Of a DNA stretch of 63,957 bases, positions 8,133 to 59,251 are shown piece after piece (position 1 is the stretch's first letter; the number at the start of each line of letters is the position of its first letter). The notes under the pieces are model-generated. The model did not search any database. It had not been told where the DNA came from and was given only the letters and a program-made list of their open reading frames with translations. Where the stretch lies: positions 1 to 63,957 of IMG/VR virus record IMGVR_UViG_3300028025_006013, one strand, 5' to 3'. The translations under genes were made by a program, and so were the position numbers. Source of the stretch: a virus.

Positions 8133-9851
8133 ATGTCTGAAACTTTAATATCCCCGGGTGTACAAATAAACGAAAATGACCAGTCATTCATCACTCAGCA
8201 AGTACTGCAAGCTGGTGCAGCAATAATTGGCCCTACCGTTAAAGGACCCGTAAACATACCTACTGTAGTTACCACATATTCAGATTACAAAAATATTTTT
8301 GGTGAAACATTCACCAGTGGTTCCCAAACATACGAATATTTTACGTCCATATCAGCTCAAAACTATTTCGCTGCCGAGGGAGGTGGTTCATTGTTAGTTA
8401 CTCGCGTTGTAAGCGGCTCATTCACACCCGCTACCGCATCCATAAACATGTCTGGTTCATCATCACCAGCGTTCATCATTGAAACATTATCTGAGGGTGT
8501 AATCATGAACAATGATTACCCGCAAAATTTAAATGGTACATTACCTAGTGGATCGCTAGACAATATTCGATGGGGAATTGAAGCAGCAAATACTGCATCA
8601 GGTACATTTACATTACTTATCAGAAAAGGAAACGACAATACCAATGAAAAATCTGTACTTGAAACATTCAACAATTTATCGCTGGATCCATACTCAAACA
8701 ACTACATTGAGAAACGCATTGGTAACTCAACACAAAACATTGCAAGCGATAGTGGTGATTTCTATTTGTCATCAACTGGAAGTTTCGCAAATATATCCAG
8801 GTACATTCGAATCAGAGAAGTACTTGCCACTACACCAAACTATTTAGACAATTCAAGCCTACCTAAAGCAATATACACGGGAAGTTTACCATTTCCATCC
8901 AGTGGCTCATTTGGTGGTGCTCAAGGAAGTAACATCCCATCAACACCAGGTGAATATTACGGAAATATAACCGGCAACTTACCACAAGGTATACCAACAT
9001 CATCATACAATGATGTAATACAATTGTTAGCAAATAAAGAGGCATATTTATTCAAATACATTACCGCACCTGGATTAATATATTCAAACCACTTTCAGAC
9101 AGTTACATCGTTAATCAACATGGTGCAAGAGCGAAACGACACAATGGCGATAATCGATTCATCACCATATGGTATGGCATCTAATGTAGGTGGAGTTGTA
9201 TCAAACGTTCAATCACTCGATACATCATTTGCAGCTACTTATTGGCCATGGGTTCAATTAAACAATTCACAGAACACTCAAGTGTGGGTACCTGCATCCA
9301 CAATCATTCCAAACGTATATGCATTCAATGATCGTGTATCTAAACCATGGTTCGCACCAGCGGGTATAAACCGTGGAAGACTTACACAGGTATCTCAACT
9401 TGAGAGAGTTGTTACCCAATCAGTGCGCGATGATTTATACAAAGCAAACATCAACCCAGTTACATTATTCCCTGGATCTGGCGTAACCGTTTACGGTCAG
9501 AAAACGTTATCGAAAAAACCAAGCGCATTAGACAGAGTAAACGTAAGACGTTTGTTAATCGAATTGAAAAGCTTCATTGGCCAATTCGCAAACACATTAG
9601 TGTTCGAGCAAAACAACCAAGTCACACGTGACCGATTCTTGACCCAAGTTAACTCATACCTAAACCAGGTACAGTTGCAACAAGGTTTAGACGATTTTAA
9701 TGTAGTGATGGACGAAACAAACAACACACCTGATGTAATTGACAACAATCAATTAGTTGGACAGGTATACATTAAACCAACACGCTCTGCAGAGTTCATT
9801 TTACTTGAATTCAACATATTACCAAGCAGTGCCACACTAGATGGGCAATAA
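8133..9851 (+). CDS. contractile tail sheath protein (paralogue A)
   Basis: A 572-residue sheath. The N-terminus (SPGVQINENDQS, then GAAIIGPTVKGPVNIPT) is the usual phage sheath opening. The C-terminal third (RVNVRRLLIELKSFIG, then NQLVGQVYIKPTRSAEF) is the conserved sheath core that packs on the tube. Subunits polymerise around the tube and contract to drive injection. It is about half identical by eye to the sheath immediately downstream. Confidence 0.93.
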   Translation: MSETLISPGVQINENDQSFITQQVLQAGAAIIGPTVKGPVNIPTVVTTYSDYKNIFGETFTSGSQTYEYFTSISAQNYFAAEGGGSLLVTRVVSGSFTPATASINMSGSSSPAFIIETLSEGVIMNNDYPQNLNGTLPSGSLDNIRWGIEAANTASGTFTLLIRKGNDNTNEKSVLETFNNLSLDPYSNNYIEKRIGNSTQNIASDSGDFYLSSTGSFANISRYIRIREVLATTPNYLDNSSLPKAIYTGSLPFPSSGSFGGAQGSNIPSTPGEYYGNITGNLPQGIPTSSYNDVIQLLANKEAYLFKYITAPGLIYSNHFQTVTSLINMVQERNDTMAIIDSSPYGMASNVGGVVSNVQSLDTSFAATYWPWVQLNNSQNTQVWVPASTIIPNVYAFNDRVSKPWFAPAGINRGRLTQVSQLERVVTQSVRDDLYKANINPVTLFPGSGVTVYGQKTLSKKPSALDRVNVRRLLIELKSFIGQFANTLVFEQNNQVTRDRFLTQVNSYLNQVQLQQGLDDFNVVMDETNNTPDVIDNNQLVGQVYIKPTRSAEFILLEFNILPSSATLDGQ

Positions 9852-9873
9852 TTTGACTTTACATAGACATATT

Positions 9874-9889
9874 AATATTTATAACTAAA
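9874..9889 (+). promoter_or_regulatory. late-type promoter box
   Basis: AATATTTATAACTAAA, 7 bases before the second sheath ATG at 9897, allows independent expression of paralogue B. Confidence 0.55.
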
Positions 9890-9896
9890 AATAAAC

Positions 9897-11591
9897 ATGG
9901 GCAATTTCACAACTTCACCAGGAGTAACATTAAACGAGGTAGACAGAACATACCTTTCCGGCCAGCCAATCCAAGTTGGTGCAGCTATAATAGGACCTAC
10001 AGTTAAGGGTCCAGTCGAAATTCCAACTGTGGTTACATCATATTCAGAATACAAAAATATATTCGGAGATGTTTTGACAAGTGGAAGCGATGTATATTCA
10101 TACTTCACATCAATAGCAGCATATAATTATTTCAATTATGGCGGTGAATCATTATTAGTAGCTAGAGTAGCACATGGTTCATTCACATCAGCAACTTCAT
10201 CTATAATTGAAAACGACTCATTAGACGATGTATTTCAGCTTGAAACATTATCGCAAGGTGTAATCATGAATAATAATGTTACAGGTTCTGGAGGTGCATT
10301 AACTAACGGAACAGTAGACAACATCCGATGTGAAATTACTAAAACAAATGATGCAGCTGGTACATTTAACTTAGTAGTGCGTCAAGGTAATGATTTGACA
10401 AGTAAAAAAATAATACTTGAAACATTCAACAACTTAAGTTTAGATCCGAAAGCACCAACATATGTTGCTAGAGTAATCGGTGACCAAACATATAGCTACA
10501 ATTCATCAACTAACCAAATGGAAATTGAAGGTTCGTTCCCGAACCGTTCAAAATACATTCGTGTAGCTCAAGTAAACGTAACTACACCAGATTATTTAGA
10601 CGCAAACGGTCAGCCAAAAGCCATTTACGCAGATACAATACCTGTAGTTCAACAAATCGTTTTCGGTGGTGCAGCAGGAACAATAATGGGTGGTGCAAAT
10701 TTCTACCACAACATCAACTCAACAAATACACAAGGTTTAGTTGCATCTAACTACGACAATATGATTAATTTGTTGTCAAACAAAGACGAATACCGTTTTA
10801 ACTTACTTGTTGCCCCTGGATTAACTAGCGATTTATACACTACTGAAATCAATACAATCATCAGCAATACACAAGAGAGAGGCGACAGTTTATTTATTGT
10901 AGACTTAGCCGCCTATGATGCAACAGGATTTGACGCGGTTGATCAAGCACAATCAATTGACAATTCATACGCTGCAGCATATTGGCCATGGTTAAACATT
11001 GTGGATCCAGCTACAGGAAAATATGTTTGGGTTCCAGCATCAACATTGATACCAGGTGTATACGCATATAACGATAAAGTATCCGCTCCATGGTTTGCTC
11101 CAGCAGGTATAAACAGAGGTGGTTTATCAACTGTACTACGTGCTCAATATAAATTGACACAAAATCAAAAAGACGAGCTATACATAAACAACATCAACCC
11201 AATCAACACATTCCCAAAACAAGGTGTAGTTGTATTCGGTCAGAAAACATTGCAAAAAGGTAATTCTGCACTGGATAGAGTAAACGTAAGACGTTTATTG
11301 ATTGAGTTGAAAGGATATATTGGTCAATTAGCAGACAACATTGTATTTGAACAAAACACAGCACAAACTCGTTTTTCATTTACAAACAAAGTAGAGCCAT
11401 ATTTGCAAAGCATTCAACAACGTCAAGGTTTATATGCATATAAAATAATAATGGACGAAAGCAACAACGGACCTGATGTAATAGACAGAAACCAATTAGT
11501 AGGTCAAATTTACATTCAACCAACTAGAACAGCAGAATTTATTTCATTGGATTTCGTACTTTTACCAACTGGGGTAAATTTCCCGGAGTAA
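9897..11591 (+). CDS. contractile tail sheath protein (paralogue B)
   Basis: A 564-residue sheath with the same opening (SPGVTLNEVDRTYLSG, then GAAIIGPTVKGPVEIPT) and the same C-terminal core (NQLVGQIYIQPTRTAEF) as paralogue A. The region around residues 90-270 is the most divergent. Codon choice differs: paralogue B uses more AGA. Both copies are intact, so the tail may contain two sheath types or one may be specialised for an end of the tail. Confidence 0.92.
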   Translation: MGNFTTSPGVTLNEVDRTYLSGQPIQVGAAIIGPTVKGPVEIPTVVTSYSEYKNIFGDVLTSGSDVYSYFTSIAAYNYFNYGGESLLVARVAHGSFTSATSSIIENDSLDDVFQLETLSQGVIMNNNVTGSGGALTNGTVDNIRCEITKTNDAAGTFNLVVRQGNDLTSKKIILETFNNLSLDPKAPTYVARVIGDQTYSYNSSTNQMEIEGSFPNRSKYIRVAQVNVTTPDYLDANGQPKAIYADTIPVVQQIVFGGAAGTIMGGANFYHNINSTNTQGLVASNYDNMINLLSNKDEYRFNLLVAPGLTSDLYTTEINTIISNTQERGDSLFIVDLAAYDATGFDAVDQAQSIDNSYAAAYWPWLNIVDPATGKYVWVPASTLIPGVYAYNDKVSAPWFAPAGINRGGLSTVLRAQYKLTQNQKDELYINNINPINTFPKQGVVVFGQKTLQKGNSALDRVNVRRLLIELKGYIGQLADNIVFEQNTAQTRFSFTNKVEPYLQSIQQRQGLYAYKIIMDESNNGPDVIDRNQLVGQIYIQPTRTAEFISLDFVLLPTGVNFPE

Positions 11592-43567: not shown

Positions 43568-44410
43568 ATGAAAGACATCCGCACACTATACCAACAGTAC
43601 TGCGAATCCCATTCAATCCCATTCAGACACGACAACAAAGTAAATCCATACGATGATACTACATTGTTTTGCCCAGCGGGAATGCAACAATTCAAACCGA
43701 AATTCAAAAACCCAGACAACACAACCATAGCAAACATACAATCGTGTATACGTTTGCAGGACATTGCGGAAATTGGAGACGGTACACATTTGTTGCATTT
43801 CAACATGCTTGGCTTGTTTTCATTCGGTGAAATGAACATGCAACAAGCGGTTGACTTTTGGATGGAATTCATTGAACGTGTACTCGAAATCAAAGTAGAC
43901 ACAATCACCATTCACCCCCACAAACTGGATGAGTGGAGACACATGTACGATGCGTATCCACACCTCAACATCACCACAGACGAGGAATGTATCTGGTCAG
44001 ATGGTGAGATGGGTGGCTACTGTACCGAATTTTATGTAAACGGGGTGGAAATAGGCAACATAGTTAACACGTTAGATCAATTCATAGATGTTGGATTCGG
44101 CATGGAGCGACTTGAGCTCATGGCAAATGGCGAACAAGTAAAGTCAGCGCTGGATACGCTGCGAGAAACAATCGAGCGCATCATCGACTCGGGCTACAAA
44201 CCTGGACCACAAAAGCAAGGGTACATTTTACGCAAATTGCTTCGTGAACTGTATGTACAGGGCGGAGAAATGGAGCACCCATTTTTCACCCAAGAGGTGG
44301 AACGTCAAGCGAAAGCAAAAGCGCGCTATGAGCGATTGGTAGTTAAACATCCAGGTATGCCAAAAGAGTGGTGGTTCGATACACATGGAGTAGATTTAGA
44401 TCTCTTGTAA
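43568..44410 (+). CDS. minimal alanyl-tRNA synthetase-like protein
   Basis: A 280-residue class II synthetase resembling the N-terminal part of AlaRS. Visible matches: TTLFCPAGMQQFKP (~35), SCIRLQDIAEIGD with the motif 2 Arg (~59), HFNMLGLFSFGE (~77-88), GGYCTEFYVNG (~148), IGNIVN (~161), motif 3 IDVGFGMERLE (~173-183), KQGYILRKLLREL (~215) and WWFDTHGVDLDLL at the C-terminus, equivalent to the DTYGFPxDLT end of the tRNA-recognition domain. Most of that domain, all of the editing domain and C-Ala are missing (bacterial AlaRS is ~870 residues). It lies ~380 bases upstream of an alanine-type tmRNA. Confidence 0.82.
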   Translation: MKDIRTLYQQYCESHSIPFRHDNKVNPYDDTTLFCPAGMQQFKPKFKNPDNTTIANIQSCIRLQDIAEIGDGTHLLHFNMLGLFSFGEMNMQQAVDFWMEFIERVLEIKVDTITIHPHKLDEWRHMYDAYPHLNITTDEECIWSDGEMGGYCTEFYVNGVEIGNIVNTLDQFIDVGFGMERLELMANGEQVKSALDTLRETIERIIDSGYKPGPQKQGYILRKLLRELYVQGGEMEHPFFTQEVERQAKAKARYERLVVKHPGMPKEWWFDTHGVDLDLL

Positions 44411-44420
44411 AAAAACGTGA

Positions 44421-44446
44421 TTGCCACATATGTATGTCGTATATTG
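44421..44446 (+). promoter_or_regulatory. host-type promoter of the tRNA/tmRNA operon
   Basis: TTG at 44421 and CGTATATTG ending 44446. The TATATTG box matches the others; the -33 element and spacing (16-17 bases) are weaker. Confidence 0.4.
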
Positions 44447-44452
44447 GTTGAA

Positions 44453-44624
44453 AACGCATTTAAAACATTAGCCCGAAGTACAAGGGAACGTAAGCAGCGC
44501 AAGGCGGTCATTTAGGTGAGTAAAACGAAATTGAGGTATCCTCATTCACCGCACACTCGGCTCCAAAACGTATGTTGGCACAAGTTTGTATGTTTTAGTG
44601 GTGCTCTCAGCAAAACATACACAT
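44453..44624 (+). ncRNA. structured leader RNA upstream of tRNA-Glu
   Basis: About 170 bases without a credible gene. It contains a strong hairpin, TGTATGTTTT (44587-44596) with AAAACATACA (44612-44621), and a smaller GAG/CTC-centred hairpin near 44530. It may be a long leader, or contain an RNA not identified here. Confidence 0.35.
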
Positions 44625-44696
44625 GCTCCGTTAGTGAAGCGGTTAACACGCTGCCCTTTCACGGCAGAAGCGCGGATTCGAATTCCGCACGGAGTA
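44625..44696 (+). tRNA. tRNA-Glu (anticodon UUC)
   Basis: Acceptor GCTCCGT/ACGGAGT (terminal G-T pair), anticodon stem CTGCC/GGCAG around CTTTCAC (anticodon TTC), T loop TTCGAAT. Discriminator A, no encoded CCA. Its 3' end directly abuts the acceptor piece of the tmRNA. Confidence 0.92.
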
Positions 44697-44763
44697 CAAA
44701 TAGTTCGTTGATTTATATTGGAAAACATGTAAGACCCAGGTTCGACTCCTGGCACGTCCACCA
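44697..44763 (+). ncRNA. ssrA: permuted tmRNA, acceptor piece
   Basis: 3' half of a tRNA-like domain: T arm CCAGG-TTCGACT-CCTGG (44736-44752), acceptor strand CACGTCC (44753-44759), discriminator A and encoded CCA. Upstream, TATATTG (44714-44720) and CATGT (44726-44730) pair with segments of the coding piece as the P2-type helix. There is no D arm or anticodon arm, so it is not a tRNA remnant. A 23-base spacer separates it from the coding piece. Confidence 0.82.
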
Positions 44764-44786
44764 CAAACCGACAATACATCACACAT

Positions 44787-44938
44787 GGGCGTGTACTTGG
44801 ATTTGATTGCATGCGACGTACGGTATATTGAGAATTGTTTAACGCTTTAAACGGCAACCAAAACCATATGAGCATTGCTGCCTAGTAGGTAGTTTTACTC
44901 AAAGCATTTTACCCATTTGGCTTAGTTAAATGGGAACT
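44787..44938 (+). ncRNA. ssrA: permuted tmRNA, coding piece with tag GNQNHMSIAA
   Basis: Begins with acceptor strand GGGCGTG (44787-44793), which pairs with CACGTCC of the acceptor piece and gives a G3-U70 alanine identity pair. TTGGATTTGATTG (44797-44809) matches the tmRNA 5' consensus. GCATG and CGGTATA pair with the acceptor piece. The tag frame starts at GGC 44853 and reads GNQNHMSIAA followed by TAG TAG (44883-44888). A small stem GTTTA/TAAAC precedes the tag; a hairpin CCCATTT/AAATGGG (44912-44934) ends the piece just before tRNA-Ser. Confidence 0.82.
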
Positions 44939-45025
44939 GGAAGGGTGGGTGAGTGGTTTAAACCAGAGCACTTGAAATGCTCCGAACTTGAGAAAGTTCC
45001 GCGGGTTCGAAACCCGCCCCTTCCT
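44939..45025 (+). tRNA. tRNA-Ser (anticodon UGA)
   Basis: Class II tRNA: acceptor GGAAGGG/CCCTTCC, anticodon stem GAGCA/TGCTC around CTTGAAA (anticodon TGA), a long variable arm (GAACTTGAGAAAGTTC) and T arm GCGGG-TTCGAAA-CCCGC. The discriminator position is T rather than the usual G for Ser. Reads TCA, the main Ser codon of the fibre genes. Confidence 0.92.
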
Positions 45026-45035
45026 CTGAACTATA

Positions 45036-49183: not shown

Positions 49184-49621
49184 ATGTATAAACTGTTGGA
49201 CATACTGATGGAAACACGTATATTTGAGTTAGCATATCATCGCAAAAATGCTATGGACAAAGTACGCGACATCAGCCTCAACACAAGCATGGAATTGCTC
49301 AAAATACTAATGTACAAAGACTCCCGCAACCAAAACCATTGGCGCGGTAAATTTGATGGGTGGATGGCTGGAATCAAACGTTATTCCAAAGGTACCCTAA
49401 AAGTACATGACCTGTTCAATTTGCTATGGGTGGAGCCATTGGGTGAAATAGACCAATTGGAAGATTTGATTAGCATGGTTGAAGCCGATTACTATACACC
49501 ATCATACCATATCGACTACAATGATTTACCCGCATTGCACAACCAAATGAAAAATATATTTGCGGATATATCCAGGGATATAGTAAACAATAAACGCATA
49601 ACTATAAACAATTACATATGA
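49184..49621 (+). CDS. hypothetical helical protein
   Basis: A 145-residue protein (HRKNAMDKVRDISLNTS, HWRGKFDGWMAGIKRY). Starts 2 bases after the previous gene and overlaps the queC start. Probably co-expressed with the deazaguanine pathway; no family recognised. Confidence 0.65.
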   Translation: MYKLLDILMETRIFELAYHRKNAMDKVRDISLNTSMELLKILMYKDSRNQNHWRGKFDGWMAGIKRYSKGTLKVHDLFNLLWVEPLGEIDQLEDLISMVEADYYTPSYHIDYNDLPALHNQMKNIFADISRDIVNNKRITINNYI

Positions 49622-50424
49622 AACAAGAAAAAAAACACGCCGTAGTTTCACTGAGTGGGGGAATGGATTCAAGCACATTACTGCTACGTTGCTTAAAAGA
49701 ATTCGATACTGTAACCGCTATTTCATTTGACTATGGTCAAAAACATAGAGTAGAATTGGAACGCGCTCAATCGTTGGTAAACTATTTAAACTCAAAAGAA
49801 GACATATACATTAACTATCGCGTAATCAAATTAGACGGTTTAGTTGATTTACTTAACTCTACATTAGTGGAAGGTGGTGCAGATGTGCCTGAAGGTCACT
49901 ACGCTGAGGAAAACATGAAAGCAACTGTAGTTCCAAACCGCAACAAGATATTTGCTTCCATCACTCAAGCAATCGCTTTATCCGTAGCAGACAAAACAGG
50001 CGAAACATGTGACATTGCGTTAGGTATCCATAGCGGTGACCACTCTGTTTATCCTGATACTACTGAAGAATTTAGACAAGCAGATACACATGCATTCAGA
50101 ATAGGCAATTGGGGCTCAGAAAACGTTGGTTTCTTTACACCATACATGGAGGGAGACAAATTTACTATTCTACAAGACGGAGAAACGTTATGCCGTGAGT
50201 TAGGACTGGAATTTAATGAAGTATATAAACGCACAAATACTTCATACAAACCATACCCATCTGGTAATTCAGACTACAAATCAGCATCTTCAGTTGAACG
50301 TATTGAAGCATTCATCAAATTAGGTAAACCCGATCCAGTACAATACGAAGACGAAACTGGTGAAGTAAGTTGGGAGGTAGCCCGAGCACATGCAGAACAT
50401 GTATTAGCTTCACACAATTCGTAA
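49618..50424 (+). CDS. queC: QueC-like 7-cyano-7-deazaguanine synthase without zinc-site cysteines
   Basis: A 268-residue protein. PP-loop SLSGGMDSSTLL (~11-22), IAISFDYGQKHRVEL (~33-48), PNRNKIFASIT. In canonical QueC the C-terminus carries SCY...C-x2-C-x2-C-VER; here the equivalent is TSYKPY ... KSASSVERIEAF (~207-230), with Ser at all or nearly all of the Cys positions. The enzyme would convert CDG to preQ0 with ATP and ammonia, but the missing structural zinc site makes it a divergent subtype. Confidence 0.85.
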   Translation: MKQEKKHAVVSLSGGMDSSTLLLRCLKEFDTVTAISFDYGQKHRVELERAQSLVNYLNSKEDIYINYRVIKLDGLVDLLNSTLVEGGADVPEGHYAEENMKATVVPNRNKIFASITQAIALSVADKTGETCDIALGIHSGDHSVYPDTTEEFRQADTHAFRIGNWGSENVGFFTPYMEGDKFTILQDGETLCRELGLEFNEVYKRTNTSYKPYPSGNSDYKSASSVERIEAFIKLGKPDPVQYEDETGEVSWEVARAHAEHVLASHNS

Positions 50425-50446
50425 TCATTACTAAACATACAAAAAC

Positions 50447-50602
50447 ATGAACCAACCAGATCCAAAAATGCACCAAATCGTTAGCTTCGTGAAATCCGGA
50501 GCACGTATAGTCGGATACGTGTTGATATTAATAGACATTAACATGGCCGTATCTACATTAGTATTATCCGAGGTAATCGGTATTGTAGAAGAACTTGTAT
50601 AG
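50447..50602 (+). CDS. small membrane-associated protein
   Basis: A 51-residue frame (MNQPDPKMHQIVSFVKSG) with one long hydrophobic stretch (IVGYVLILIDINMAVSTLVL). It sits between queC and queD, with the queD promoter overlapping its 3' end. Function unknown. Confidence 0.45.
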   Translation: MNQPDPKMHQIVSFVKSGARIVGYVLILIDINMAVSTLVLSEVIGIVEELV

Positions 50603-50624
50603 CTCAAAACAAATTTGTATATTA
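50595..50624 (+). promoter_or_regulatory. host-type promoter TTGT-N19-TATATTA
   Basis: TTGT at 50595-50598 and TATATTA at 50618-50624, 14 bases before the queD ATG. Confidence 0.5.
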
Positions 50625-50638
50625 AAACAAAAAACAAT

Positions 50639-51103
50639 ATGTCAACATTTACATCATCAAAATTATACGATGGGTATTCTACATGCTTCAGACAATGGGG
50701 AGCAGATGGTACTCATTGCAAATTCCTCCATGGATATGCGGTTTCGTTTCGCGTATGGTTCGAAGGCGAACTAGATCACCGCAATTGGGTGATGGACTTT
50801 GGTGCAGCAAAACGCGCAAAACATACAATTGAGGGCATGAACCCAAAAGACTATTTCGCGTACTTGCTAGACCACACTACCATCATCGCAGAAGACGATC
50901 CGTATTTAGAGCATTTCAAGCAAATGGATGCAGACGGAATCATCCAACTACGCATACTACCTATGGTAGGATGTGAGCGTTTCGCTGAACATTTATACAA
51001 TGTAATTAACAACTGGACACAAGCTGAAACAGACGGGCGTGTTAGAGTATCTAAAGTAGAAGTATATGAACATGAACGAAACTCAGCATCGTATGAGGGG
51101 TAG
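50639..51103 (+). CDS. queD: 6-carboxytetrahydropterin synthase-like QueD
   Basis: A 154-residue T-fold protein. The ATG at 50639 follows the promoter; an upstream in-frame ATG overlaps it. STCFRQWGADGTHCKFLHGYAVSF (~13-36) contains the catalytic-type Cys and LHG segment, and WVMDFGAAKRA (~46-56) and VEVYEHERNSA (C-terminus, with conserved Glu) complete the family pattern. It would make CPH4 from H2NTP supplied by FolE. Confidence 0.85.
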   Translation: MSTFTSSKLYDGYSTCFRQWGADGTHCKFLHGYAVSFRVWFEGELDHRNWVMDFGAAKRAKHTIEGMNPKDYFAYLLDHTTIIAEDDPYLEHFKQMDADGIIQLRILPMVGCERFAEHLYNVINNWTQAETDGRVRVSKVEVYEHERNSASYEG

Positions 51104-51263
51104 TAAGCCCCCATACACTAACACTACGGACAATCTATATACATTTCTGTTAATAGCTATGTCCCTGGAAGCACATCTAAACATCAACATAACAGATGAT
51201 GAATGGGGTGAAATTTCAGACATAGACGATATTATTGAATTAGTAAACGAAAAATTAAGTTAA
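51066..51263 (+). CDS. acyl carrier protein-like small protein
   Basis: A 65-residue frame (possible internal start at 51093, 56 residues). TDNLYTFLLIAMSLEAHLNINITDDEWGEISDIDDIIELVNEKL reads like helices II-IV of an acyl carrier protein, but the phosphopantetheine Ser of DSL is Asn (DNL). It overlaps the queD end by 38 bases from the upstream start. Degenerate ACP or similar fold; moderate confidence. Confidence 0.5.
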   Translation: MNMNETQHRMRGSKPPYTNTTDNLYTFLLIAMSLEAHLNINITDDEWGEISDIDDIIELVNEKLS

Positions 51264-51266
51264 CAT

Positions 51267-51380
51267 ATGGATGGTCAAACAGTTAGACAGTACGGAAATG
51301 TTCAATTAGCTTGGACGACCACAACCACATGGGATATTTATTTCCCTCAACCACTGATAGTAAAATACATCATCACATGA
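51267..51380 (+). CDS. micropeptide coupled to thioredoxin
   Basis: A 37-residue frame (MDGQTVRQYGNVQLAWTTTT) whose TGA overlaps the thioredoxin ATG (ATGA at 51377). The coupling suggests it is translated; function unknown. Confidence 0.4.
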   Translation: MDGQTVRQYGNVQLAWTTTTTWDIYFPQPLIVKYIIT

Positions 51381-51619
51381 AACAACTAATTTACTTTTAC
51401 GGCACATTTTGCAATCCTTGCAAATCGTTCCGCCCCACCATTGACACAATAAGCAGGGAATACCCAGTGCGATACGTTGATGTCGATCAAGAACCACAAC
51501 TTGTAACAGAGTATGGAATTCGTTCAGTACCCACAATTGTGGTAGTGGAAAATGGACGCCCAGTTGGAAAACAATCGGGCGTGCTGACAGAAGGTCAGTT
51601 GCGTGGTATGTTAAATTAA
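51377..51619 (+). CDS. thioredoxin/glutaredoxin-like protein
   Basis: An 80-residue protein; the start is set by the ATGA overlap, which puts YFYGTFCNPCKSFRP at residues ~7-21. The active site is CNPC; the cis-Pro loop is RSVPTIVV (~48-55). Likely electron donor for the phage class I RNR. Confidence 0.85.
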   Translation: MKQLIYFYGTFCNPCKSFRPTIDTISREYPVRYVDVDQEPQLVTEYGIRSVPTIVVVENGRPVGKQSGVLTEGQLRGMLN

Positions 51620-51623
51620 TAGA

Positions 51624-51648
51624 TGACCCCAATTTGGGGTCATTTTTA
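51624..51648 (+). terminator. rho-independent terminator
   Basis: TGACCCC-AATTT-GGGGTCA followed by T5, after the thioredoxin gene. Confidence 0.8.
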
Positions 51649-51673
51649 TCCATATACTTTCCATATCATTCAC

Positions 51674-51689
51674 CATATGTATAACTAAA
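51674..51689 (+). promoter_or_regulatory. late-type promoter box
   Basis: CATATGTATAACTAAA, 8 bases before the short fibre ATG at 51698; a late signal inside a metabolic region. Confidence 0.5.
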
Positions 51690-51697
51690 ATTAAAAC

Positions 51698-52138
51698 ATG
51701 GGAAATTTAACCTTGCGTTCCGTTAAAGGATCTGCACTTACACATACAGAATTAGACAATAACTTCAGATATTTCACTGGTTCACACGCCATTACTGGCT
51801 CACTTACCGCATCTGATGGTTTTGTAGGAAATGTAGTTGGTACAGCTTCATATGCTACATTAGCTGTAACTGCATCATACGCTATTAGCGCGTCATATGC
51901 TACAACCTCATCATATGTTAAAAATGCACAAACAGCAAGCTACGTTGCAAACGCGGTATCCGCTTCATACTCCACAACATCCAGCTACGTTGAACTTGCA
52001 TCCAGAATCCCAACTGTTGCATATGTCCCTACATCATCAGCAGATGAAGGAACCATAGTTGGTTCATGGGCTGGATCAGCATATTCACTATATGTTTACA
52101 TTGGTGGAGGTTGGAGAAAATTTGAATCAACCCCATAA
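51698..52138 (+). CDS. short tail fibre-like protein
   Basis: A 146-residue protein. N-terminus MGNLTLRSVKGSALTHTELD is a common phage fibre opening; residues ~30-105 contain the same TASYA/SASYA repeats as the 1170-residue fibre; the C-terminus (SLYVYIGGGWRKFES) resembles the end of the YadA-like fibre. A compact fibre placed between thioredoxin and queE with its own late-type box and terminator. Confidence 0.75.
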   Translation: MGNLTLRSVKGSALTHTELDNNFRYFTGSHAITGSLTASDGFVGNVVGTASYATLAVTASYAISASYATTSSYVKNAQTASYVANAVSASYSTTSSYVELASRIPTVAYVPTSSADEGTIVGSWAGSAYSLYVYIGGGWRKFESTP

Positions 52139-52164
52139 TTTAAAACAAACACATTCAAAAAATA

Positions 52165-52196
52165 TTTGGCTCCGCAAGGAGCCATTTGTATCTTTA
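52165..52196 (+). promoter_or_regulatory. host-type promoter TTTG-N20-TATCTTTA overlapping a terminator
   Basis: TTTG at 52165-52168 and TATCTTTA at 52189-52196, upstream of queE; nearly the same composite element as at 43359. Confidence 0.6.
52167..52184 (+). terminator. hairpin, terminator type
   Basis: TGGCTCC-GCA-AGGAGCCA followed by TTTG. Confidence 0.6.
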
Positions 52197-52211
52197 ATCA
52201 AAAACAGTTAT

Positions 52212-52997
52212 ATGAGTGAAAAGAAACTAGGTCGCGTTAGCGACTACAATAAAGTACTACCGGTACTAGAGTTATATCGAGCAGTTCAATCCGAAGGATC
52301 GCGATTTGGTCGCCCCACAATCATTGTTCGTACCACTGGATGCACGCACAGGTGTTGGTTTAACGGGGGTGGATGGTGTGATTCATGGCAAACTTCCATA
52401 CACCCAGAGAAAGGGCAATACACATTCAACGATATCGTTAAAATGTACGAGGACAATCCACAGATACATGAAATGATGATCACTGGTGGTTCCCCTACAA
52501 TGCATGGTGATTTAGTGAATGAATTAATGTATTTTGCTCGCGAGCACAATATATTTGTTACCATTGAAACTGAAGGATCCCATTTTTTACCTACGGATCA
52601 TCCAATTGATCTAATTTCATTGTCACCTAAATTTTCAAACAGTGTACCTAAAATAGGTGTGCCTACACCACAAGGTAAACCAACCGATCAGAAAATGATC
52701 GACCAGCACAACAAATTTAGACTAAACGTGAGCGCTATTAAACAAACCCTGGCATACCACAAAGACTACCACTACAAGCCAGTGTGGGATGGAACCGATA
52801 CCAATTTAATTGAAATTGAGGCATTCAGGGTACAATTAAACATCCCACGAGACAAAACATTCGTCATGCCCGCAGGAGATACCCGAGAGGAACTCATTCG
52901 CATGTACCCTATTGTATTTGAGATGTGTGCTGAAAAAGGATACAACATGACAGGACGCGATCACATAATCGCATACAACAAAGAACGCTATGTCTGA
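52212..52997 (+). CDS. queE: 7-carboxy-7-deazaguanine synthase QueE
   Basis: A 261-residue radical SAM protein; the start follows AGTTAT and the promoter, not the long in-frame extension into the fibre gene. RTTGCTHRCWFNGGGWCDSW (~40-59) holds the three cluster Cys with C-x3-C-x7-C spacing, longer than the usual C-x3-C-x2-C. MMITGGSPTMHG (~91-102) and FVTIETEGS are typical of QueE. It would convert CPH4 to CDG. Confidence 0.85.
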   Translation: MSEKKLGRVSDYNKVLPVLELYRAVQSEGSRFGRPTIIVRTTGCTHRCWFNGGGWCDSWQTSIHPEKGQYTFNDIVKMYEDNPQIHEMMITGGSPTMHGDLVNELMYFAREHNIFVTIETEGSHFLPTDHPIDLISLSPKFSNSVPKIGVPTPQGKPTDQKMIDQHNKFRLNVSAIKQTLAYHKDYHYKPVWDGTDTNLIEIEAFRVQLNIPRDKTFVMPAGDTREELIRMYPIVFEMCAEKGYNMTGRDHIIAYNKERYV

Positions 52998-55547: not shown

Positions 55548-57389
55548 ATGTTTCAAAGTGTATATTTTTCACGCAACGGAGAAGACGCATACCACTACTT
55601 TCTCCGCGATGACAAGGGTGGTATAAACAAATTCCAGTACCGTCCAACCGTATACAAGTTAGACGAATATGGTGAGCATACAACCCTATTTGGAGACAAG
55701 TGTTCCCCTATTTCCGGCAAATACGATTGGAAGGACCCCACCATATTGGAAAAAGACATAGACAAAGAACTCGTTTTGTTGCGCGATTTATACTACGAGA
55801 CAGACGATATGCCATCCTACCACAATTTGGTATACCTGGATATCGAAATTGAAATCATTGGCGCACTTAACCCAACCACCATTCGTGAAGCAAATGCGGA
55901 AATAACCGCAATTGCATTAATTGATGCAACCACAAAGGAAAAGACATGTTTCATTTTGGACAAGCAAAATCAAATCCAGGAAGTATCTGCGGACGGTAAA
56001 TCGGTTGTACCATGTATCGATGAAAATACGTTGCTACGTAAATTCCTAAACAAGTGGGAACAAATGGATCCAACCATATGCGTTGGCTTCAACTCGGACT
56101 ATTTCGATATGCCATATTTGTACTATCGCATTAAAAAACGTTTGGGTGATGATGTATATCGCTTATCCCCAATTGGTAAAATTGACGAGAATCCAAACAA
56201 TCCGAATTCACCAATTCGCATTGGTTTAATCAATTGTCTGGATTTCATGTTGTTACTTAAAAAGTACATCATGAAAGAAGAACCGTCGTACAAGTTGGGA
56301 GACATTGGCGAAAAATACGCCAAGTTAGGCAAAATTGAATACAATGGTAACCTGGATGCATTATTTCGGGAAGACCCAAACAAATACATAGACTACAACA
56401 TTCGCGATGTTGAGATATTGGAAGCGTTGGAAGACAAATTGAAATTCATCGAGTTAACCATATTGATTTCACATTTGTGTCACACTCCATATGAATCGAT
56501 ATATTTCAACACCATACTGAACGAGGGAGCCATATTAACTTACCTAAAGCGAAAAGGAATTGTTTCACCTAACAAACCTACCACTACAAATCCTAGCATA
56601 CGTGAGATTGAGGTGGGTGATTTAGTGGTACATCAGCGTGGTACCCCCACGATTGAAGGGCATATCCACAGCATAGAAGGGCATAGCGTTATAGTTAAAA
56701 CAATTTCAGGCTCATTCATGCAACGTAAACTTCATACTGTTAGAAAGAAAGAAGGATATGCTGGGGGGTATTTGCTTCCACCTATGGTTGGGCTTCATAG
56801 TTGGCTTATAAATGCGGATTACGCATCACTGTATCCTTCCATAATTCGTTCACTCAATTTAGGTATCGAAACAATCAAGGGTAGAATTGTAATTGAAAAT
56901 CCAAACTACAATTGCTGGTGCAGTTACGAAGAGTTGAAAGAAGAAGATCCCGATAAGGTATTAACCATAGAAAAAATTAACCGGAAAAACTATACCCTCA
57001 AACAAGGGAAAATATCTGCGAAGGATCTAATCGAACTCATACACAAAAACAACTGGACTATATCAGCCAACGGGGTTATATTCTCAACCGATAAACCCAG
57101 TATTGTATCTGAACTTTTAGCTGACTGGTTTAGACTCAGACAAGAATACAAGAAAGTAATGAAAGATGCATATAATTCAGGTGATTTTGAAAAAGGTAAA
57201 CTGTATAACCAAAAACAACACTCAATCAAAATCTTACTGAACAGTGTATATGGGTGCTTTAGTATCAATTCATGGCGCTATACGGATGGATATAAAATGT
57301 GCTCATCAGCCATAACCACATTCGGGCAACGCTCCATCCAGGAAACCATAAGATATGCGAACAAACTTATCGAAAGTGAATACTTGTAG
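55548..57389 (+). CDS. DNA polymerase family B, N-terminal part (split gene)
   Basis: A 613-residue protein. 3'-5' exonuclease region with VYLDIEIEI (~95-103), GFNSDYFDMPYLYYR (~182-196) and YNIRDVEILEAL (~282-293). Polymerase motif A INADYASLYPSII (~420-432) and motif B IKILLNSVYGCFS (~560-572). It stops at IESEYL, before the catalytic motif C, which is encoded ~1 kb downstream after a homing endonuclease gene. The two parts must associate to form an active polymerase. Confidence 0.92.
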   Translation: MFQSVYFSRNGEDAYHYFLRDDKGGINKFQYRPTVYKLDEYGEHTTLFGDKCSPISGKYDWKDPTILEKDIDKELVLLRDLYYETDDMPSYHNLVYLDIEIEIIGALNPTTIREANAEITAIALIDATTKEKTCFILDKQNQIQEVSADGKSVVPCIDENTLLRKFLNKWEQMDPTICVGFNSDYFDMPYLYYRIKKRLGDDVYRLSPIGKIDENPNNPNSPIRIGLINCLDFMLLLKKYIMKEEPSYKLGDIGEKYAKLGKIEYNGNLDALFREDPNKYIDYNIRDVEILEALEDKLKFIELTILISHLCHTPYESIYFNTILNEGAILTYLKRKGIVSPNKPTTTNPSIREIEVGDLVVHQRGTPTIEGHIHSIEGHSVIVKTISGSFMQRKLHTVRKKEGYAGGYLLPPMVGLHSWLINADYASLYPSIIRSLNLGIETIKGRIVIENPNYNCWCSYEELKEEDPDKVLTIEKINRKNYTLKQGKISAKDLIELIHKNNWTISANGVIFSTDKPSIVSELLADWFRLRQEYKKVMKDAYNSGDFEKGKLYNQKQHSIKILLNSVYGCFSINSWRYTDGYKMCSSAITTFGQRSIQETIRYANKLIESEYL

Positions 57390-57399
57390 CATATTTTAC

Positions 57400-57413
57400 C
57401 ATATGTATAACCG
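57400..57413 (+). promoter_or_regulatory. late-type box of the homing endonuclease
   Basis: CATATGTATAACCG, 24 bases before the endonuclease ATG at 57438, in the short gap after the polymerase N-part. Confidence 0.4.
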
Positions 57414-57437
57414 TACGAGACATTAAAAACGCAACAT

Positions 57438-58352
57438 ATGGGAAAACGACTTACATTGGATGAAGCTATTCAAAAATCAATAAACGTTCATGGAAACAAA
57501 TACGATTATTCGTTAATTACTGAATACAAGGGAGTAATGGAAAAATATCCCATAGTATGTCCCACTCATGGGATGTGGGAGGTGTCATTAGATAACCATA
57601 TTACTAAAAAATCAAAGTGCCCCAAATGTGTTGGAAAATACCATACATTTACAGAAAAAATAGAAACCGCAACTAAAATACATAAACATATATATGATTA
57701 TTCATTGATTACTTCGGATTTTCAAACTATGGACAAAGTTCCCATCACCTGCAAAAAACATGGTGTATTTGAGATGCTTTGGACTAACCATGTACACGGT
57801 AAACAAGGATGTCCTAAATGTAAACCCCATAGAAAACCTATTTCACTCGACGTTCTTAAACAAAGAACTGTTGAGTTGGATTTAGGTTACACATACGACT
57901 GGGATTCATATACTGGATATTTTGACAATACATTTAGGATTGAATGCTCTCAACATGGGTGGTTCAATCAACAACTTTCAAACCATCTGCAAGGGCAGAG
58001 ATGCCCCAAATGTAGCTGGAGTAAAGGAGAGGAATCTATAGAGTTATTTTTACAAGCAAAAAATATTCCGTATATTACTCAGAAAACATTTGATGGTTGT
58101 AGGAATCCAAACACCAACAGTATTTTGCGATTTGATTTCTTCATCCCCCATTTGAATTTATGTATTGAATTTGATGGTGAATTACATTATAAACCAGTTA
58201 AATTTTTTGGGGGGCAAGAATCATTTGAAAAAGCCCAATTTTTAGACCAAGTGAAAAATGATTTTTGTACCCAAAACAAAATCAATTTACTTCGAATATC
58301 CTACATGCAGTTTAATGATATAGACAAAATACTAGAAAATATAGTTATATGA
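57438..58352 (+). CDS. homing endonuclease, DUF723/Vsr-like, interrupting the polymerase
   Basis: A 304-residue protein. Three ~65-residue repeats of the form KYDYSLI...CPTHGMWE...HxxxxxxCPKC (~15-190) are zinc-binding DNA-recognition modules seen in phage homing endonucleases. The C-terminal part (IPYITQKTFDGC, LRFDFFIPHLNLCIEFDGELHY, ~210-255) is a Vsr/EDxHD-type nuclease fold. Its stop overlaps the start of the polymerase C-part. Confidence 0.85.
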   Translation: MGKRLTLDEAIQKSINVHGNKYDYSLITEYKGVMEKYPIVCPTHGMWEVSLDNHITKKSKCPKCVGKYHTFTEKIETATKIHKHIYDYSLITSDFQTMDKVPITCKKHGVFEMLWTNHVHGKQGCPKCKPHRKPISLDVLKQRTVELDLGYTYDWDSYTGYFDNTFRIECSQHGWFNQQLSNHLQGQRCPKCSWSKGEESIELFLQAKNIPYITQKTFDGCRNPNTNSILRFDFFIPHLNLCIEFDGELHYKPVKFFGGQESFEKAQFLDQVKNDFCTQNKINLLRISYMQFNDIDKILENIVI

Positions 58353-59251
58353 AATTTAACGTAGAAGAATTGAATTCCCATGTGCGTGGAAGCGACACCG
58401 ACTCATTAATTATAGGACTCGAATCCATTTTGAGACGCCGAATCCCGGACTACGAAAACACATCAGACGATACCATAATTGAAGAAGTAAAGAAACTCCA
58501 ATCATCCATAGGCGATAAACTAAACGACTTCCAAAACGACATAGCATCCAGGTGTTTTAATTCCACCCAACACTATTTGGATCTTAAACCAGAATATATC
58601 ATCAAACGAGTATACTGGTCGGGTAAACGCAGGTATGCACAATATATAATAGACAAAGAGGGCGTTAAGGTAGAGGAGTTGGACACTAAAGGTTTGGATT
58701 TGATCAAATCAAACTTCCCTCCTCTATTCCGCAACTTCGGCGAGAAGGTAATCAAGGACATACTATTTGGTAAATCAAAAGCAGACATAGACCAAGACGT
58801 ACTCGCATTTAAATCATCACTCAACACGATAGACTGGAAGCATTTACTCAAACCAACCGGACTTAAAAAACTAGGCGAGTACATTGAACGCGCACCCATG
58901 CCCGGTGAGTTATTCTCGACACTCAAGAAAAAATGCCCTGTCAACACTAAAGCCGCCATCATCACGAATGATTTCATTCGCTTCAAAAAACAATCCGCAA
59001 AATACCCGGAATTTTCACTTGGAGACAAAATGTACTACGCGCAACTCAAACCAAACCCATACAAGATTGATGTAATTGGATTCAATGGCTACAATGATAT
59101 GCCAGAAATAACCGAAATCATAAACAAATACATCGACCGTGAAGGACTATTCGATTCAATCATGCGCAATAAACTTGAAACACTATATTCAGATATAGGT
59201 TGGGAGTTACGCATGAACACATTCGTGGACGATTTCTTCAATTTTGGCTAG
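58349..59251 (+). CDS. DNA polymerase family B, C-terminal part (split gene)
   Basis: A 300-residue protein. Motif C GSDTDSLII is at residues ~14-22, followed by the thumb domain (YWSGKRRYAQYIID, LKKLGEYIERAPM, LKPNPYKIDVIGF). The first ~13 residues have no obvious equivalent in intact polymerases and may be newly acquired. Translationally coupled to the endonuclease gene (ATGA overlap). Confidence 0.9.
   Translation: MKFNVEELNSHVRGSDTDSLIIGLESILRRRIPDYENTSDDTIIEEVKKLQSSIGDKLNDFQNDIASRCFNSTQHYLDLKPEYIIKRVYWSGKRRYAQYIIDKEGVKVEELDTKGLDLIKSNFPPLFRNFGEKVIKDILFGKSKADIDQDVLAFKSSLNTIDWKHLLKPTGLKKLGEYIERAPMPGELFSTLKKKCPVNTKAAIITNDFIRFKKQSAKYPEFSLGDKMYYAQLKPNPYKIDVIGFNGYNDMPEITEIINKYIDREGLFDSIMRNKLETLYSDIGWELRMNTFVDDFFNFG

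Follow-up and report, generated by a model that had tools for sequence, protein, structure and literature searches.

A Circularly Permuted tmRNA Gene of Bacteroidota Type in the tRNA Array of a Phage

Results

A Permuted tmRNA Gene between Two tRNA Genes

The window, i.e., the whole stretch of 63,957 nucleotides analysed here, is a 64-kb linear virus record with myovirus genes. A tmRNA gene was located at 44698–44938, between the genes for tRNA-Glu (44625–44697) and tRNA-Ser (44939–45026). The features of the locus, in window coordinates, were as follows.

43568–44410, + strand: compact alanyl-tRNA-synthetase-like (AlaRS-like) gene, 280 aa; a possible, unproven tmRNA partner
44625–44697, + strand: tRNA-Glu(TTC), directly upstream of the tmRNA
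44698–44763, + strand: acceptor piece; predicted 5′ end at 44698, where it abuts tRNA-Glu
44698–44706, 44712–44715, 44717–44720 and 44725–44732, + strand: P2 5′ strand, within the acceptor piece
44736–44752, + strand: T stem-loop
44753–44759, + strand: acceptor 3′ strand CACGTCC
44760–44763, + strand: A and CCA
44764–44786, + strand: intervening sequence, 23 nt; removal by tRNA-type processing predicted
44787–44938, + strand: coding (mRNA-like) piece; 3′ end predicted
44787–44793, + strand: acceptor 5′ strand GGGCGTG
after the acceptor 5′ strand, in the coding piece, + strand: D-like segment TACTTGGATTTGA
44807–44814, 44821–44824, 44826–44829 and 44832–44840, + strand: P2 3′ strand, within the coding piece
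between P2 and the tag, in the coding piece, + strand: single strand of 12 nt
44853–44888, + strand: tag frame GNQNHMSIAA with TAG TAG stops, identical in the relative L003
44869–44901, + strand: P5-like helix GCTGCCT/AGGTAGT with the stops in its loop; outer 4-bp stem TGAG/CTCA
44912–44934, + strand: terminal hairpin CCCATTT-loop-AAATGGG, 3′ of the tag
44939–45026, + strand: tRNA-Ser(TGA), directly downstream of the tmRNA

An earlier note on this DNA had claimed a two-piece circularly permuted tmRNA gene and proposed a covariance model search with a permuted model as the check. The Rfam model RF04321 (tmRNA_permuted, cut-off 47 bits) matched the window at 44711–44885 over the full model length, with 64.2 bits and an E value of 4.4e-10. 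ARAGORN also called a permuted tmRNA, with the tag GNQNHMSIAA; for 60 dinucleotide-shuffled windows used as a control, it gave one tmRNA call and no permuted call. The same permuted tmRNA, with an identical tag and its structure kept, was present in L003, a locus in which the neighbouring gene is 93% identical. Backed by RF04321, ARAGORN and the conservation in L003, the element is a genuine permuted tmRNA gene, as had been claimed.

The acceptor piece is encoded upstream of the coding piece with the intervening sequence between them, the order of half-tRNAs read previously, and the individual features were found where the note had placed them. The tRNA-like domain is complete, with GGGCGTG and CACGTCC paired at seven of seven positions in a 7-bp acceptor stem containing G3.U70, a T arm and CCA; the CCA end lies at 44763 and the 5′ piece starts at 44787, after a spacer of 23 nt. 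Both the permuted architecture and the intact alanine identity pair are thus directly visible at the locus. The proposed tag was likewise found intact: its codons occupy 44853–44882, the resume codon GGC is preceded by TTTAAAC, and the two TAG stops lie inside the loop of the P5-like hairpin. The pairs proposed for P2 were essentially right, but the helix is longer than described, with an additional 9 bp formed between 44698–44706 and 44832–44840. Because this extension ends 12 nt before the tag, there is no room for PK1. PK1 is typical of known two-piece tmRNAs (PMC3985003) without defining them, as mitochondrial tmRNAs also lack pseudoknots.

In the two-sequence alignment of the window and L003, 97.3% of cells were standard over 55 pairs of the acceptor, T stem, P2, P5-like helix and terminal hairpin, and the slid-register control gave 32–45% pairing. 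Four double compensatory changes were observed, two in P2 and two in the T stem. P2 joins the two pieces and covaries, in accordance with these changes and with the class-wide pairing fit described below.

The gene was absent from L002, a close relative (95%) in which tRNA-Glu stands directly beside tRNA-Ser, which indicates that it is dispensable and forms an optional cassette of the tRNA array. A hairpin, GTATGTTTT...AAAACATAC, lies in the non-coding stretch of about 210 bp between the AlaRS-like gene and tRNA-Glu (44411–44624), which is well conserved in both L002 and L003.

The Phage and Its Host

The nearest cultured relative was Flavobacterium phage immuto, with GroEL 61% and the tail sheath 47% identical, and a Bacteroidota host is plausible for the window phage on these similarities. 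No match to RF04321 was found in phages immuto and Mel-JY01. The DNA polymerase gene (55548–59251) is apparently split, with an HNH homing-endonuclease-like gene (57438–58352) between the parts. Two different tail sheath genes are adjacent at 8133–11591, and QueC-like and QueE-like genes of the 7-deazaguanine pathway lie at 49618–52997.

Relation to the tmRNAs of Bacteroidota

The window and the one-piece tmRNAs of Bacteroidia have in common TTTGAY, a Gly resume codon and the TTTAAACGGC context. The Bacteroidia one-piece tmRNAs carry TTTGAC where others carry TTCGAC; GENNYALAA is one example of their tags and CTTTAAACGGC one of their contexts. The window carries GGATTTGAT and L003 carries GGCTTTGAC; CTTTAAACGGC and a tag starting with Gly occur in both. 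Because the Bacteroidia sequences had been gathered by means of a pattern for tags with a G start, the statistics on their tags are not independent; the D-segment was left unselected. In a wider sample of the phylum (61 genomes), the 30 best-scoring tmRNAs were mostly TTCGAC with mixed tags, and the TTTGAC/Gly signature thus belongs to part of the phylum, taken as the class Bacteroidia. The assignment of the window to the Bacteroidota type is based on the TTTGAC D-segment, the Gly resume codon and the grouping with Bacteroidia in the 97/94 split of the tree (see below).

The statement of the earlier note that Bacteroidota hosts have one-piece tmRNAs held in the sampled genomes, 60 of 61 of which gave an RF00023 match over the cut-off. 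When about 790 Bacteroidota genomes were searched with RF04321, the only match over the cut-off was a copy in a phage region of genome G246. The degenerate tag pattern GNQNHMxIAA gave no match in bacterial genome contigs.

A Phage-Borne Class without Room for PK1

Two scans of IMG/VR with Bacteroidota-type ends, both requiring TTTGAC and leaving the tag free, revealed 54 different loci, 39 of which were called permuted by ARAGORN. A pattern scan of IMG/VR for the usual TTCGAC type (GGNTTCGAC) gave 71 loci, nearly all with permuted calls and Ala-starting tags. Among permuted sequences with tags ending in AA, a Gly start was found in 26 of 29 of the TTTGAC class (18 of 21 distinct tags) versus 1 of 66 of the TTCGAC class (1 of 35 distinct tags; Fisher p = 1e-10 for distinct tags). 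Two further class members were found without the scan pattern. One is the copy in the Bacteroidota genome G246, located in a phage region with DNA polymerase, helicase and exonuclease genes, this genome having an ordinary tmRNA too; the other is in Maribacter phage Panino (PP540027), with an RF04321 score of 62.2 bits. A survey from 2021 had reported 53 two-piece tmRNAs in 18,146 phage genomes, mostly aquatic (PMC9004378). Since phage permuted tmRNAs were already known and those of Bacteroidota type are common in phage contigs, the remark in the earlier note that one would not expect such a gene in this kind of phage can no longer be maintained.

The distance from the 5′ end to the tag was 57–66 nt in G-tagged class members including the window (66 nt), versus a median of 85 nt in TTCGAC permuted tmRNAs and 93–99 nt (median 95 nt) in Bacteroidia one-piece tmRNAs. 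The A-tagged TTTGAC sequences fell outside the 57–66 nt pattern, and the three included in the tree were placed with other groups. RNAalifold recovered part of P2 only from the class alignment because the distal helix is variable in length, and a partner-swap test was therefore used instead. The P2 strands of a member's own coding and acceptor pieces paired better than swapped ones, a result matched by none of 2000 permutations, and the same was observed for 14 non-redundant members. The G-tagged class members are without room for PK1 and have a long covarying P2 helix in its place.

BLASTN of the class tmRNAs against cultured phages revealed no close relative, and tblastn of the flanking genes of other class members was uninformative on the host. 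The data point to a widespread, stripped-down, phage-borne and apparently unrecorded class, closer to the one-piece tmRNAs of Bacteroidota than to the three recognised bacterial permuted lineages (PMC11915505). In the literature searched, no description of a Bacteroidota-type permuted class lacking PK1 was found. It is this class that looks new, not the presence of a permuted tmRNA in a phage in itself.

Other tmRNA genes were noticed alongside the class. Cellulophaga phages phi38:1 (L347) and Calle_1 (L348) carry a one-piece tmRNA of Bacteroidota type, for which the tag given by ARAGORN is odd (AQIEANMEAVNAILNLEVAVGV) and the true one may start upstream at GGAAACAAC. Two viral permuted tmRNA genes contain an intact tRNA-Ala(TGC), apparently in the intervening sequence (L335, 4786–4860; L338, 4462–4536); there is one earlier report of a tRNA inside a permuted tmRNA gene, in a nominally archaeal permuted tmRNA (PMC11915505).

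Discussion

Origin of the Permutation

A tree was built from 71 conserved columns after masking of the site used in the scans. A 97/94 split placed the window, L003, the G246 prophage copy, Panino and 21 class members together with 23 one-piece sequences from the Bacteroidia set, and the TTCGAC-type permuted tmRNAs and other one-piece tmRNAs on the other side. An early profile score of the window was mixed; it included the fast-evolving P2 strand and was wrongly anchored at the 5′ end in some sequences, so it was not relied on. Permuted tmRNAs are recognised in three bacterial lineages and in mitochondria. On balance, we lean towards a fourth permuted lineage, the source of which was a one-piece tmRNA of host type. 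It would have arisen in Bacteroidota phages, shed PK1 and probably every other pseudoknot, and come to occupy unrelated phages, the host chromosomes having stayed one-piece. Descent of the class from a Bacteroidia one-piece tmRNA, and not from the alpha-, beta- or cyanobacterial permuted lineages, is supported as the most likely course, short of proof.

An alternative, in our opinion rather unlikely, is that one of these known permuted lineages was picked up from another phage or host and later converged on Bacteroidota motifs, which adaptation to the host could have brought about. A single origin would account for the common permuted architecture, genes of tRNA arrays are exchanged among phages, and permuted tmRNAs of the TTCGAC type are frequent among phages. 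Constraining all permuted tmRNAs to a single clade cost 29 log units, and with an AU p = 0.19 (71 columns) such a clade is not rejected, which makes an independent origin of the permutation in the Bacteroidota-type class likely rather than proven. The D-segment, resume context, tag start and T-side nevertheless jointly group with the Bacteroidia one-piece tmRNAs, and the G-tagged class is without PK1, whereas most TTCGAC permuted tmRNAs retain a PK1-sized segment. The window, moreover, fully matched none of the lineage-specific Rfam models, the only match listed being a partial one to beta_tmRNA (34.4 bits versus a cut-off of 84). If the fourth lineage, borne by phages and not by host chromosomes, is real, permutation recurs and phages are a site of the evolution of tmRNA architecture.

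The Neighbouring AlaRS-like Gene

The AlaRS-like protein contains the Pfam domain tRNA-synt_2c, and its nearest PDB chains by sequence and fold were AlaRS catalytic fragments (E = 1.9e-15), with a confident AlaRS fold in the model (pLDDT 90.7). The end of the gene is separated by 287 nt from the acceptor piece downstream, and a tRNA-Ala(TGC) lies 2.4 kb upstream of the gene. The substrate of the protein could be the tmRNA or the nearby tRNA-Ala. The close spacing, the fold and the tRNA-Ala would all suit a dedicated phage module in which the adjacent compact AlaRS charges the phage tmRNA, yet most of the 55 viral loci of the family have no tmRNA close by, and L002 kept the enzyme where the tmRNA is absent. 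The gene was found in none of 44 other records examined, nearly all of them with Bacteroidota-type permuted tmRNAs, and a module of this kind was accordingly rejected as a feature of the class. For the window phage itself it appears unlikely and, as the family is broad and mostly not beside tmRNAs, the gene is treated as a lead only.

Proteins of this compact family (L002–L007, L017–L071) have about 280 aa, with no room for editing or C-terminal domains, and some of the loci lie in tRNA arrays with tRNA-Ala. In L012 (LR745206.1, 361965–374774), from a 635-kb uncultured phage, a compact AlaRS-like gene stands beside a short class II synthetase-like gene; there are also 13 tRNAs and, by eye, what resemble a Thg1-like and a TilS-like gene.

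Proposed Function

The best explanation overall is that the window carries a functional phage-borne permuted tmRNA of Bacteroidota type, belonging to a class without PK1 and working with host SmpB (probability of about 0.8). One precursor would probably be transcribed together with the flanking tRNA genes, and RNase P and 3′ tRNA-processing enzymes may cut out the 23-nt intervening sequence, giving two RNAs. These would be held together by the acceptor stem and the unusually long P2, which is supported by covariation. Alanine charging is expected because the G3.U70 identity element is intact, and it would be carried out by host AlaRS or possibly by the compact AlaRS-like protein of the phage. 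By homology, the tmRNA would enter stalled ribosomes with host SmpB, translation would resume at GGC and GNQNHMSIAA would be added, the ribosome and the product being released during infection.

The gene might instead encode an inhibitor or decoy, an RNA that resembles a tmRNA, ties up SmpB or ribosomes of the host and so prevents trans-translation there, as has been proposed for mycobacteriophage DS6A. A phage tmRNA consisting of the tRNA domain only inhibits the endogenous tmRNA (PMC11915505; PMC4131195), PK1 is missing here, and a search of the window and of 28 related or class records revealed no phage-encoded SmpB. However, the gene retains an intact tag frame, double stop, P5-like hairpin and resume context, all of them identical to those of L003, and a tag ending in IAA would be superfluous for a decoy, which makes this explanation improbable. 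A functionless relic, i.e., a captured or decaying copy of a host tmRNA left by integration, is very improbable: tmRNA genes do serve as integration sites and the gene is absent from L002, but the permuted form differs from the host form, the full-length structure is kept with compensatory changes between the window and L003, and the class is widespread with a covarying P2.

The class makes it directly testable why phages bring their own rescue RNA and their own tag despite those of the host. It is also a natural experiment on whether trans-translation needs PK1, a simple long P2 standing in its place.

Comparison with Known tmRNAs

The permuted tmRNAs of Alphaproteobacteria, Betaproteobacteria and Cyanobacteria (RF04321; RF01849, RF01850, RF01851) have the same order of acceptor piece, intervening sequence and coding piece as the window, and they also share with it the G3.U70 acceptor, the T arm, P2 between the pieces and a tag frame that ends in AA and has its stops in P5. 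The window differs in having TTTGAY where theirs is a conserved TTCGAC, in its Gly resume codon where theirs is usually Ala, and in the short segment from the 5′ end to the tag (66 nt), which leaves no room for PK1; the coding piece of known two-piece tmRNAs typically has PK1 and PK2 (PMC3985003). The tmRNAs of phages Melnitz and Mosig and of cyanophages are likewise phage-borne and permuted, but PMC9004378 groups them with the alpha, gamma and cyanobacterial lineages and gives no Bacteroidota-type lineage.

The Bacteroidia one-piece tmRNA (RF00023) has the same TTTGAC D-segment, the same Gly resume codon after TTTAAAC or similar, the tag pattern G-x-x-N-(Y/H)-..-(L/I)-A-A and, in class members, the same T-side sequence. 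In contrast to it, the window tmRNA is permuted in two pieces, without a PK1-sized segment and without detectable PK2–PK4, and is about 240 bp long as compared with about 395 bp. The tmRNA of Maribacter phage Panino, a gene given only as tmRNA in PMC11590407, differs from that of the window in its tag, GKVMNVSFAPTVRQFA, and its longer intervening sequence. It is nevertheless permuted in the same way, with TTTGAC, a Gly tag, a distance of 60 nt from the 5′ end to the tag and a position inside a tRNA array, in a phage with a cultured flavobacterial host.
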